From Actinomadura terrae (GTDB lineage Bacteria > Actinomycetota > Actinomycetes > Streptosporangiales > Streptosporangiaceae), in the NCBI RefSeq assembly GCF_022751215.1, contig NZ_JAICDG010000002.1:310001-374000 (forward strand): DNA of 64,000 nucleotides. Reading direction: 5' to 3'. A program made the translations under genes and the position numbers. Within the stretch, counting starts at the first letter, position 1, and every line of letters starts with the position of its first letter. Below are positions 10,871 through 55,811 of the stretch, piece by piece. The notes beneath the pieces were generated by a model that was not told the origin of the DNA, made no database searches, and saw only the letters and a program-made list of their open reading frames with translations.

Positions 10871-11938
10871 GTGAGCAACGCCTTCGCTGAGGAGTCCGGG
10901 CAGGTCTCTGGTGGGGGGAGTGCGCCCCCGCAGGCCCCGCCCGAGGAGACCGGCCCGTTCGGCCTGCACGTCGACGCGGCGCTCGCGGCCGACGCCAAGC
11001 GCCGCCTCGCCGCCGTGGAGGCGCTCCTGCTGGAGTCGGTCCAGGGGGAGGACGCGCTGCTCACCGAGGCGTCCAAGCACCTGGTCGTCGCGGGCGGCAA
11101 GCGGTTCCGCCCGATGCTGGTGCTGCTCGCCTCGCACTTCGGCGACCCCGCCGCGGCCGGCGTCGTCCCGGCCGCGGTGGTGGTCGAGCTGACCCACCTC
11201 GGCACGCTCTACCACGACGACGTCATGGACGAGGCGACCGTCCGGCGCGGCCGGGAGTCGGCGAACTCCCGCTGGACCAACACGGTCGCGATCCTCACCG
11301 GCGACTACCTGTTCGCCCGCGCGTCCGACCTGCTCGCCGACCTCGGGCCCGAGGCCGTCCGCATCCAGGCCCGCGCGTTCGCGCGGCTCGTCCGGGGGCA
11401 GATCCAGGAGACCGTCGGCCCCGCGGAGGGCGCCGATCCGCTCAAGCACTACCTCCAGGTCGTCGCCGACAAGACCGCCTCGCTGATCGCGGTCTCCGGC
11501 CAGTTCGGCGCGCTGCTGTCGGGCGCCCCCGCGTCCGTCGTCGACACCGTCACCTCCGCGTGCGAGAAGATCGGCATCGCGTTCCAGCTGTCGGACGACA
11601 TCCTCGACATCGACTCCGACGCCGAGCAGTCGGGCAAGACCCCCGGCACCGACCTGCGCGAGGGCATCCGCACGCTGCCCGTCCACCACGTCCTCGCGGG
11701 GACCGACGAGAAGGACGCCCGGCTGCGGGAGCTGCTCGTCCAGGACCTCTCCGACGACGACGCCCTGCACGCCGAGGCGCTCGCGCTGCTGCGCGCGCAC
11801 CCCGCCATGGACCTCGCCCGCGCCGACCTGCGCCGCTGGGCCGAGGACGCCCGCGCCGAGCTGCTCACGCTTCCCGACATCCCCGCGCGCTCGGCCTTCA
11901 CGGGCCTGTGCGACTACGTCGTCTCCCGCACGGGTTGA
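10871..11938 (+). CDS. Long-chain polyprenyl diphosphate synthase
   Basis: An all-alpha trans-isoprenyl diphosphate synthase that condenses allylic diphosphates with isopentenyl diphosphate. The first aspartate-rich motif is YHDDVMDEA and the second is QLSDDILDID; GGKRFRPML is the substrate-binding GKxxRP motif. The 355-residue length fits hepta-, octa- or nonaprenyl synthases, and position directly behind the nuo operon suggests the menaquinone side chain. Chain length cannot be read safely from the sequence. The GTG at 10871 follows AAGGGG; an open frame continues upstream inside nuoN but is not isoprenyl-synthase-like. The gene converges on cvnD. Confidence 0.9.
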   Translation: MSNAFAEESGQVSGGGSAPPQAPPEETGPFGLHVDAALAADAKRRLAAVEALLLESVQGEDALLTEASKHLVVAGGKRFRPMLVLLASHFGDPAAAGVVPAAVVVELTHLGTLYHDDVMDEATVRRGRESANSRWTNTVAILTGDYLFARASDLLADLGPEAVRIQARAFARLVRGQIQETVGPAEGADPLKHYLQVVADKTASLIAVSGQFGALLSGAPASVVDTVTSACEKIGIAFQLSDDILDIDSDAEQSGKTPGTDLREGIRTLPVHHVLAGTDEKDARLRELLVQDLSDDDALHAEALALLRAHPAMDLARADLRRWAEDARAELLTLPDIPARSAFTGLCDYVVSRTG

Positions 11939-22606: not shown

Positions 22607-22797
22607 GGTGATCATCTCCCCCGTCGGGCCGGGTGTTAACCCGTTGATCGAGCCGATGTCGCCTGCACTTGTACGACGCGCCAGCTGTACGTGAGGTTCG
22701 CCGAGCTTTTGCTCCAACTCTGCCCTTTCGACCGAATTTCGCTTGCGGAGCGTGGTCAAAGGCGCGTGGCCGATCACGGTCAGGAGACGGTTCACGG

Positions 22798-53577: not shown

Positions 53578-53659
53578 GGCGGGTTGCCCGAGTGGCCAAT
53601 GGGAGCGGACTGTAAATCCGTCGGCTTAGCCTACGCAGGTTCGAACCCTGCACCCGCCA
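53578..53659 (+). tRNA. tRNA-Tyr (GTA)
   Basis: An 82-base type II tRNA with seven-base acceptor arms GGCGGGT and ACCCGCC and discriminator A. The anticodon GTA is at 53612-53614 in the loop CTGTAAA. The variable arm GTCGGCTTAGCCTAC and T arm GCAGGTTCGAACCCTGC are complete. CCA is not encoded. The 3' part, from 53607 to two bases past the gene at 53661, is duplicated exactly at 55356-55410, marking it as an integration site. Confidence 0.96.
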
Positions 53660-53669
53660 CACCCCGGAA

Positions 53670-53868: not shown

Positions 53869-54229
53869 TCAGTCGCCGAGCGCGCTGTCGATTCGTCTGT
53901 GAGTCGTCGCCTTCTGGCCGTCGATGCACTTCGCATAGATGTCCAACAGGACCTTGACGCTGTGCCCGGCCTCTTCGGCGACCTCGGTTGCTGGCACACC
54001 GGCGTTGAGCCGCAGGGACACCCCCCGCATGCCGCAGGTCGTACAGGAGCGACCGGACCACAGTCAGTTCGCCCCATCCTGTTTCCGGCAGGTAGCAGTT
54101 GTCCTTGTGCAGCGCGGTCGCCTCGGCCGGGCGAAGCATCGCGTAGTACATCGTCGCGTACAGAGCCCGCAGGCGTCGGCCCCGCCCACGTGCCCCGATG
54201 TAGGTGACGGCGACTAGGCATTCCCGCAT
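53869..54229 (-). pseudogene. Tyrosine recombinase remnant (integrase)
   Basis: The minus strand gives YIGARGRGRRLRALYATMYYAMLRPAEATALHKD, a recognisable start of an integrase catalytic domain with its first arginine. It then jumps at GWGELTV to LLYDLRHAG, omitting roughly 100 expected residues, and one extra G shifts the frame. After correction it reads SLRLNAGVPATEVAEEAGHSVKVLLDIYAKCIDG and ends ...RRIDSALGD at 53869. The RH, GHS and DIY active-site elements are thus visible but the gene is broken three ways: no N-terminal domain, internal deletion, frameshift. It ends 210 bases from the tRNA, the place usual for an element integrase. Confidence 0.82.
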
Positions 54230-54252
54230 GTGTCGCGGTCCGGTAACCGCGC

Positions 54253-54459
54253 GTGGACCGACCCCTTCTGTACGAGTACATCGAGTTGCGCGACGCCGCC
54301 CGCGACGGCTGGAAGCTGACCCACTGGGACGAGTACACCGCCGGACTCAACACCGAAGACCCGCCCCAAGCCGCACACCTCACTATTGACAACCGCCTAG
54401 GCGCAGCCGTCAGCCTCGCCGACCAAACCCGCCGAGCCCTCACCAAACTCATTCCATAA
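54253..54459 (+). CDS. Small ORF, function unknown, possibly element-borne
   Basis: GTG 54253 opens a 68-residue frame, DRPLLYEYIELRDAARDGW and so on, with balanced composition (WKLTHWDEYTAGLN, LADQTRRALTKLIP) that looks more like protein than shadow. No ribosome site is clear. It may be a shortened gene of the decayed element. It is divergent from the integrase remnant. Confidence 0.4.
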   Translation: MDRPLLYEYIELRDAARDGWKLTHWDEYTAGLNTEDPPQAAHLTIDNRLGAAVSLADQTRRALTKLIP

Positions 54460-54543
54460 CCGCAGCTCAGCCAGGCAGCACCTGCGCCGGATGAGAACTT
54501 TCTCTACGTCTTTAAAGGCGCCCGCTACGCGGTCGCCGGGGCC

Positions 54544-54597
54544 AGCGCGGGACGGCGGGCGTGCGGCCTCTCCGGGCCGTTCCCGCCGTCCCGCGCT
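54544..54597. terminator. Long perfect hairpin
   Basis: AGCGCGGGACGGCGGG (54544-54559) pairs perfectly with CCCGCCGTCCCGCGCT (54582-54597) around a 22-base loop. It lies downstream of the small ORF and upstream of the CRISPR array. It may end plus-strand transcription inside the element. Confidence 0.7.
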
Positions 54598-54796
54598 GCC
54601 CCAGGCGAACAGGGAGCCAATCGTAGGAGTGCGAGCGACCGGGTAGGTCTGGGATGCTTCGGGCGTGCCCGCCGTCGGGATCGATCTTGATCGTTTCAGC
54701 GACACGCCGGGGTCTCGCGCACTACCGGAGGCTTGCTGAAATCGCAGTCCATGTACGGCCGCCTGTGCGCCATCCAGCCAGCGGCTTTACCATGGG

Positions 54797-55221
54797 GTCC
54801 TCATCACCCCTGCGAGGGTTCGCAACCCGTACAACGCGACCTCATCGAGCAGGTGCCCAATCACGGGTCCTCATCACCCCTGCGAGGGTTCGCAACTGAC
54901 CATCGACACCGACCGCCCGCACCTCTACTTCGTCCTCATCACCCCTGCGAGGGTTCGCAACAGGGCGTGCGGCCAGGACGGGCAGCGTCCCAGCGGTCCT
55001 CATCACCCCTGCGAGGGTTCGCAACAGCAGGACGACGCGCGACCACGCGCCGGTCGCGAGGTCCTCATCGACTCTGCAAGGGTTCGCAACTTACCGCTGA
55101 ACCAGACGAACGCGTTGCCTTCCAGGTCCTCATCGCCCCTACGAGGGTTCGCAACATCTCGCTGCCAGTGAGTTTGAACAGCGCGCCGTCGGGTCTTCAT
55201 CCGCTCCCGAGGGGGCGCAAC
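54797..55221. CRISPR. Orphan CRISPR array, seven repeats, six spacers
   Basis: Repeats of 30 bases begin GTCCTCATCA and end GGTTCGCAAC. They start at 54797, 54867, 54932, 54996, 55061, 55126 and 55193. The first four are identical. Repeats five and six have three or four changes in the middle, and the seventh is a 29-base, heavily altered copy. Spacers measure 40, 35, 34, 35, 35 and 37 bases and do not resemble each other. Decay at the right end suggests the leader is on the left (before 54797). No cas gene is in the window. The array sits between the two tRNA-Tyr copies. Confidence 0.9.
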
Positions 55222-55355
55222 ACCACGCGGCGGGTGATCCCGAACTCTTCTGCAAGCGTTGGCGCTTGGAGGGTGTTCGCCCGGCGACTGGGCCGAATAC
55301 GGGCGAGAAGCTTGGTTGTTGGCGGGTTTTTGCAGGTCAGGGGAGTTCGGCGGTG

Positions 55356-55410
55356 GGACTGTAAATCCGTCGGCTTAGCCTACGCAGGTTCGAACCCTGC
55401 ACCCGCCACA
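55356..55410 (+). repeat. Exact copy of the tRNA-Tyr 3' end (att site)
   Basis: Fifty-five bases are identical to 53607-53661, from the anticodon stem through the T arm and acceptor to two bases beyond the tRNA. The 5' half of a tRNA is missing, so this is not a gene. It is the second attachment site of an element inserted at tRNA-Tyr, about 1.75 kb from the first. Confidence 0.9.
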
Positions 55411-55650
55411 GCAGCGGAAATAGCCTCTGACCAGCGCAAATGGTTAGAGGCTGTTCGCGTCTCCAAGATCTCTCCGCACGCAGCCGGACGTCGCCAGGCG
55501 TCACCGGATGGCGCTGGTCCCGGAATATGCGCGGAATGACTCCGAGCGCGGTCCCGCAGGTCGTGCCGGGAACGGCGAAGCCCGCGCGAGCCGGAGGCTC
55601 TGGAGGGGGTGCCGGATCGGCCGTCGCATCGTCGATTCGTCTGTGCGTTG
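55411..55650 (-). pseudogene. Second integrase 3' remnant
   Basis: After the duplicated att, the sequence is a diverged copy of what follows the intact tRNA: a hairpin at about 55421-55461 (AGCCTCTGACC with GGTTAGAGGCT), then the tail of an integrase gene on the minus strand reading THRRIDDATADP near 55610-55650, matching THRRIDSALGD of the first remnant. Upstream coding sequence is gone. This suggests two related elements once sat in tandem at this tRNA. Confidence 0.6.
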
Positions 55651-55811
55651 TGGATCCGCGGGGTGCGGTGCGGTCGAGCTGGGTGCTCAGTGTGGTGTGA
55701 GGGCGGCGCTGTCTTGGAGGCTCGCGGCGCGGTGTGTGTCGACGAAAGTCGATGGGGGGTGGGGACTATTGCCCGCTGCCGCGGCGTCGGGCCTTTGAGG
55801 AGGCTTGGCGT

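Follow-up and report, generated by a model that had tools for sequence, protein, structure and literature searches.

A leader-bearing, cas-less CRISPR array within an integrative-element remnant of Actinomadura terrae, with counterparts on apparently intact AICEs

Introduction

CRISPR arrays that have a leader and lack cas genes are already known from archaeal viruses, and plasmids have been found to carry orphan arrays. The Sulfolobales viruses SPV1 and SPV2 carry cas-less mini-CRISPR arrays preceded by a leader (PMC6858448), which, in the accessible part of that account, hold one or two spacers by definition and serve the mutual targeting of sister viruses. Viral mini-arrays are also what the available portion of a review of CRISPR on mobile elements speaks of (PMC11656645). 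Plasmid orphan arrays, as far as the accessible text of the relevant survey goes, are shorter than cas-linked arrays and have been suggested to use host Cas proteins in trans (PMC9071438), and in Salinispora CRISPRs are reported, in the part of the source at hand, to be concentrated in genomic islands (PMC4223832). For the pSAM2-type AICEs of actinomycetes, the consulted part of a survey mentions CRISPR in connection with cas components of the T4SS-type ICE Fcci3350 and names no AICE array (PMC3218068). A search of the open-access literature by titles and the starts of abstracts found, among the matches listed, no report of cas-less arrays on AICEs.

The locus considered here lies in a stretch of 64,000 nucleotides of Actinomadura terrae (the window; contig C11:310001-374000 of an 8.96-Mb genome), and holds a genuine array, ordinary in kind, in a place that is unusual and recurring. 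It resembles the SPV1/SPV2 mini-arrays, as presented in the accessible text, in its leader, host-like repeats, lack of cas genes, mobile carrier, and spacers that differ between related elements. In contrast to those arrays, the Actinomadura ones are associated with bacterial integrative elements, hold up to eight spacers where element-linked (locus L082), have yielded few targets, and are known from sequence alone; the window array has the leader and lacks cas genes as a virus-type mini-array does, but carries six spacers rather than one or two. With plasmid orphan arrays it shares the absence of cas genes, residence on mobile DNA, the suggested use of host Cas proteins and a length below that of cas-linked arrays, whereas the plasmid arrays are not tRNA-integrated AICEs and, in the accessible part of their description, no leader group is named for one element class (PMC9071438). 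In the present case the trick is repeated on AICEs, a major class of integrative elements in bacteria; some of the examples seem intact, and the arrays have their own leader group.

The CRISPR array

An earlier note on this DNA, made from the letters alone, had described seven repeats and six unique spacers, with no cas gene, between two att copies. All of this is confirmed: near-identical direct repeats alternate with unique spacers of similar length, no two of them alike, from 54797 to 55221, and a leader, overlooked in the note, directly precedes the first repeat. The features are as follows.

54669-54796, + strand, CRISPR leader of group A (about 128 nt), common to other arrays of the genome and genus and assigned by tree
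54797-54826, + strand, repeat 1
54827-54866, + strand, spacer 1, 40 nt, no convincing target
54867-54896, + strand, repeat 2
54897-54931, + strand, spacer 2, 35 nt, 20-nt viral match without extension
54932-54961, + strand, repeat 3
54962-54995, + strand, spacer 3, 34 nt, no convincing target
54996-55025, + strand, repeat 4
55026-55060, + strand, spacer 4, 35 nt, 33/35 match in a phage-type recT gene of another Actinomadura genome
55061-55090, + strand, repeat 5, three changes from consensus
55091-55125, + strand, spacer 5, 35 nt, no convincing target
55126-55155, + strand, repeat 6, one change
55156-55192, + strand, spacer 6, 37 nt, no convincing target
55193-55221, + strand, repeat 7, degenerate, 29 nt, trailer end

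Repeats 1-4 are identical to one another, as had been claimed, each differing from the consensus at one position. The decay beyond them does not, however, increase steadily as the note had it, with three changes in repeat 5, one in repeat 6, and the most in repeat 7. It is usual for CRISPR arrays to keep identical repeats next to the leader and to decay toward the trailer, and the pattern seen here is this ordinary leader-to-trailer polarity, by itself no sign of neglect. The picture of an old array unmaintained at its right end is accordingly replaced by one in which the dead part is the surrounding element, with its integrase in two pieces. An A at repeat position 10 is common to the four leader-end repeats and absent from repeats 5 and 6, which suggests that at least three spacers were added after this change, and hence that acquisition in trans may have taken place in the past. 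The same base is also present at this position in arrays on contig C12, and recombination between arrays could be an alternative source of it. A sigma-70 scan of 54200-55420 returned no promoter-like site, no CRISPR family reached the gathering score in an Rfam search of the window, and covariation in the repeat hairpin was no higher than in shuffles.

The element remnant around the array

The array lies between two exact copies of the 3' part of a tRNA-Tyr gene, together with the remains of element genes.

53578-53660, + strand, tRNA-Tyr (GTA), the integration site (ARAGORN, Rfam RF00005)
53607-53661, + strand, att copy 1, 55 nt, tRNA-Tyr 3' part plus one base, exact direct repeat with 55356-55410
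53872-54268, - strand, tyrosine integrase remnant in two pieces (tblastn, frames, blastn)
54256-54461, + strand, C-terminal fragment of an element-type HTH + AAA_33 gene (XRE-AAA; tblastn)
54485-54641, + strand, G+C-rich inverted-repeat module (inverted repeat, blastn)
55356-55410, + strand, att copy 2, 55 nt, exact copy of 53607-53661

The two integrase pieces (53872-54024 and 54047-54268) are in different frames and retain about 125 of 466 aa, some 280 nt being missing between them when measured against a relative. In tblastn they match the 466-aa integrase beside the tRNA-Tyr of locus L054 at 73% (51 aa) and 72% (74 aa), and by blastn 53681-54240 matches tRNA-Tyr loci of other Actinomadura. 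The XRE-AAA fragment is 81% identical over 67 aa (tblastn) to a protein of an A. roseirufa AICE, in which Pfam finds AAA_33, with HTH_31 below the cut-off. In AICE-type loci of Actinomadura (L069:908-4704, L070, L071), genes of this HTH/AAA_33 kind are repeatedly accompanied by a small AAA kinase-like gene. The inverted-repeat module is found upstream of several group A leaders (L068, L069, L072, L081, L082 and L083; blastn 86-97%). The tRNA att pair and tyrosine integrase of an integrative element are thus present, the latter only as two pieces, and since neither RepSA nor FtsK is matched between the att copies the window copy is a remnant rather than an AICE. It has lost most of its body and is immobile by its own genes. 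Just past att copy 2, 55446-55651 shows weak similarity (66%) to the integrase-side fragment, possibly from a second, older element at the same tRNA-Tyr.

Such decay raises the alternative that the window array is the silent relic of a dead element, devoid of present function, even if element-borne arrays elsewhere work. The reduction of the integrase to two pieces and of the AAA gene to a tail, the degenerate last repeat and the absence of a promoter-like match in the scanned region all point this way. Set against them are the retained leader, the complete type I-B set encoded in the genome (see below), and the shared A of the four leader-end repeats with the three or more later additions it suggests, a sign weakened by the possibility of recombination with the C12 arrays. 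We consider this a serious alternative that falls somewhat short of an even chance.

Apparently intact carriers

The note had further proposed carriage of the array on an integrative element, a proposal borne out by the integrase and HTH/AAA remains between tRNA and array, and by two apparently intact AICEs of 11.3 and 13.2 kb in A. roseirufa (G036) that are organized alike, with the array and its group A leader a short way inward of the distal att. Judged by gene content, both of these loci, on contigs 108 and 124, qualify as AICEs, having an integrase, RepSA, FtsK_SpoIIIE and a tRNA att pair. On contig 108 a tRNA-Gly(CCC) at 11361 and, at 22661, a 45-nt repeat of the tRNA 3' end enclose genes for an integrase, RepSA, DUF2637, FtsK/SpoIIIE, GntR and HTH proteins; next come the inverted-repeat module, the leader, and an array of five repeats that stops 371 nt short of the distal att. 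On contig 124 13.2 kb lie between 44-nt copies of a tRNA-Phe-like 3' half (at 56 and 13235), which we take to be a Phe-type tRNA half, no whole tRNA having been found on this contig; the genes are those for integrase, RepSA, FtsK/SpoIIIE, DUF2637, GntR and HTH/AAA proteins, and the leader with two repeats lies 375 nt inside the distal att. Four further carriers or remnants are bounded by tRNA-type repeats.

G036:C6, tRNA-Thr-type repeats, 60 nt
G000:C17:361 kb, tRNA-Gly-type repeats, 43 nt
G026:C297, tRNA-Thr-type repeats, 24 nt
G012:C32, tRNA-Gly-like repeats, 26 nt

By eye, the order and the orientation relative to the tRNA are the same in the window, contigs 108 and 124, G036:C6, G000:C17 and G026:C297, and the distance between array and distal att in these loci is 134-375 nt, G036:C6 with 2.3 kb being the exception. 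The same test for an exact repeat pair of at least 22 nt on both sides was positive in none of eight loci with the sister leader (group B, below) and in one of 19 control loci.

Two leader groups

The 3' end of the window leader (up to three mismatches) occurs at 32 places in 10 of 65 Actinomadura genomes, and nowhere in the reversed control. These 32 leader-A places were compared with 32 places of a sister leader (B) and 20 control positions, the latter hand-picked at round coordinates in four genomes. One control (L100) holds two leader-B arrays, and another (L101) has a tRNA-Ser-linked repeat pair spanning the control point, with no array. A tree of 64 leaders places 31 A leaders on one side of a branch with 100/99 support and the other 33 on the opposite side, the bootstrap being not fully settled; G049:C26:51673, matched as leader A, falls with B and was counted there.

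The two groups differ sharply in their surroundings. With distance limits of 4 and 5 kb that were fixed after a first look, and some leader loci shortened by contig ends, a tRNA lies within 4 kb upstream on the same strand in 9/31 A, 0/33 B and 0/20 controls, and an AICE protein, whole or remnant, within 5 kb in 11/31 A, 0/33 B and 0/20 controls. Either link is found for 16/31 A leaders as against 0/33 B (Fisher p 6e-7) and 0/20 controls. Arrays within one genome are not independent; the contrast is also seen inside the four genomes having several of both leaders (12/20 A, 0/28 B, p 2e-6), and in a per-genome count (7/9 A, 0/7 B, p 0.003). By these neighborhoods group A leaders are tied to integrative elements and group B leaders are not. 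Cas genes near the leader were found for 2/31 A (both by RAMP search) and 7/33 B, a difference (p 0.15) from which no inference is drawn; the two A leaders in the vicinity (within 10 kb) of type III RAMP genes, G006:C1:4103610 and G037:C332:19083, are both without element link, and in G026 and G049 I-B genes are found no farther than 10 kb from leader-B places. In A. roseirufa, which has no I-B Cas7 match, similar stretches are repeated a few kb apart, each with a leader-B place (L114, L116, L117).

That 15/31 A leaders have neither tRNA nor AICE link counts against the explanation favored here, in which the array belongs to the element. It fits with the array being the leftover of a chromosomal CRISPR-cas locus, stripped of its cas genes and picked up accidentally by an element, as do the many small, partly decayed arrays across the genome and the reading of orphan arrays, in the accessible part of one survey, as remnants of decaying systems (PMC9071438). 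An accidental capture is nevertheless hard to reconcile with an order that recurs in two apparently intact elements, whose att sites differ (Gly and Phe-like), as well as in remnants flanked by att copies at Tyr, Gly and Thr, or with the well-supported branch that sets the A leaders apart, and we regard it as improbable. More doubtful still is the notion that the element's repeats act as Racr-like RNA decoys inhibiting host CRISPR instead of as guides. Some A loci do consist of a leader with a single recognised repeat, but the window array has a leader and six distinct spacers, whereas Racrs are described, in the part of the review consulted, as single repeat units (PMC11656645); we give this reading very little credence. 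The single-repeat loci themselves, L084 and L089, could be relics or units of the Racr kind.

Cas systems that could serve the arrays

A repeat pattern allowing up to three mismatches occurs at 56 places in the genome of the window and at none in its reversed control, so that chance is excluded. Small arrays of the same repeat family, many of them partly decayed, are scattered over contigs C11, C12, C13 and C17, and of the 16 array starts examined, 13 are preceded by a homologous leader, which in one case is limited to its last ~30 nt. Genome-wide, the window array is not orphaned. The note had allowed that Cas proteins might be encoded elsewhere, and had advised looking for cas genes with the same repeat; cas genes are found on contig C17, where the single Cas1 match of the genome is located. 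A complete type I-B operon, cas6-8-7-5-3-4-1-2, occupies C17:212073-220272, with cas6, 8, 7, 5, 3, 4 and 1 recognized by family search (cas4 under the curated cut-off), cas8 assigned by one PADLOC model, and cas2 by where it lies and by its 72% identity to an annotated Cas2. A type III-D-like cluster (C17:198934-210230), divergent from this operon, encodes Cas10, III-D-type Cas5 and Cas7, and a CARF-HEPN protein. In this region (C17:197690-210230; L016, L024) the Cas7 and Cas7/Cas5 proteins are large, 611-947 aa, and the CARF-HEPN protein has 768 aa.

The Streptomyces plasmid NZ_CP109119.1 has a homologous I-B operon (62-82% identity over eight Cas proteins), directly followed by an array whose repeat is 3/30 positions off the consensus and whose leader end is similar; since an array of the family directly follows this operon, the repeat family goes with type I-B. 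The leader-repeat junction itself is matched in seven stretches from named genomes, every one of which is an Actinomadura. In type I-B terms, then, the host has the operon and a repeat family seen beside its Streptomyces homolog, while the window array, lacking cas genes of its own, would be used in trans.

A comparison across genomes is less favorable to type I-B. Its Cas7 is matched in 4/9 group-A genomes, no significant excess over the rest (p 0.07), which counts against the preferred explanation. In A. roseirufa, where the two apparently intact carriers reside, no I-B Cas7 is matched, and for Cas1 there is no more than a weak, partial match (30 bits) on a fetched stretch that also shows a distant Cas3-like match; the III-D stretch fetched from this genome begins at a contig end and contains Cas7 and neither Cas6 nor Cas10. 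In G064 there is no RAMP match and no I-B Cas7, and Cas1 is present.

The arrays might instead chiefly serve a III-D-like system. RAMP matches occur in nine of the ten genomes with the leader-A pattern; five of these ten have no I-B Cas7 match, and in three genomes without such a match (G006, G010 and G037) the fetched III-D region includes a Cas6 that shares 73-86% identity with the I-B Cas6 encoded in the window's genome. Type III-D therefore likely also uses the repeat family, as these Cas6 proteins suggest. That it is the chief user is unlikely, though far from negligible, given the array directly behind the I-B operon in Streptomyces, the group B leaders no more than 10 kb from I-B genes in G026 and G049, and the one leader-A genome without any RAMP match.

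Proposed mode of action

Taken together, these observations are probably best explained by a remnant of an AICE with a leader-bearing, cas-less array served in trans by Cas proteins of the host. According to this proposal, the AICE would bring only leader and array; where a matching system exists, host Cas6 would cut the array transcript, the I-B complex, and probably the III-D complex too, would use the crRNAs, and host Cas1-Cas2-Cas4 would insert spacers at the element's own leader. The element would thereby guard both host and itself against phages and other invaders, and spacers could travel between strains. In the genome of the window, the mobility genes would since have been lost and the array left behind.

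A more general proposition, on which we are evenly divided, is that leader-bearing, cas-less arrays may be standing cargo of Actinomadura AICEs, ready for acquisition at the distal att end, filled by any fitting host system and passing on memory by conjugation, while the sister-leader arrays stay chromosomal. If a conjugating element brings working spacers and can gain new ones with nothing but the host's Cas proteins, CRISPR memory would be transferable in actinomycetes without moving a cas operon.

Spacers and their targets

The note had surmised that the spacers are directed against competing elements, and had called for a search of phages and plasmids. That surmise finds little support, with one of the six window spacers matched in phage-type DNA and no target found for the other five. 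Spacer 4 matches 33/35 nt in G052 (E 2e-7 for that genome, 55.4 bits), in a search of 65 genomes that covered 29 of the 59 listed spacers with six candidates scored per genome, so that targets were possibly missed. The site lies in a RecT-type gene that neighbors one for a RecE-like exonuclease; the same stretch also contains ParB-like, RuvC-like and helicase genes, and on this gene content the target region is phage-type DNA. The recT match was not listed when the six window spacers were searched in 298 genomes of the family, a set that may or may not include G052, with two candidates scored per genome; the best match outside the window's own array was then 23 nt long (42.8 bits). Exact 20-nt scans of IMG/VR with the starts of the six spacers gave one match, which did not extend. 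The whole window array yielded only weak matches, one in a phage collection (81.6%, E 0.01) and five among plasmids (E 0.1-0.4), apart from a Streptomyces plasmid matched via the repeats. Of 55 of the 59 listed spacers compared with phages, only one, from L072, gave a match, in an SSB gene (E 0.7, 16 records).

Spacers of other group A arrays have some matches as well. A spacer of the C17:303 kb array, in the window's genome, has matches in two species, 34/37 nt in G012 (L134, G012:C7:213666) and 31/37 in G016 (L135, G016:C6:62777), where the site is in an ORF with an MvdD-like pre-ATP-grasp domain adjoined by an HTH regulator. In G012, a spacer of G036:C6 matches 32/37 nt of an FtsK/SpoIIIE-like gene; phages and conjugative elements are both known to carry genes of this type. 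No AICE was demonstrated among the targets found. A bias of the arrays toward AICE genes is not supported either, spacer peptides showing no excess of similarity to AICE-locus proteins over reversed spacers or control-locus proteins. At four target sites the 5' bases are TCG, TCG, TCG and CCG, too few for a PAM call. Duplicate records aside, the only fetched loci with a spacer in common are L076 and L088, neither of them AICE-linked, and two spacers of L080 read by eye like what we take to be integrase motifs.
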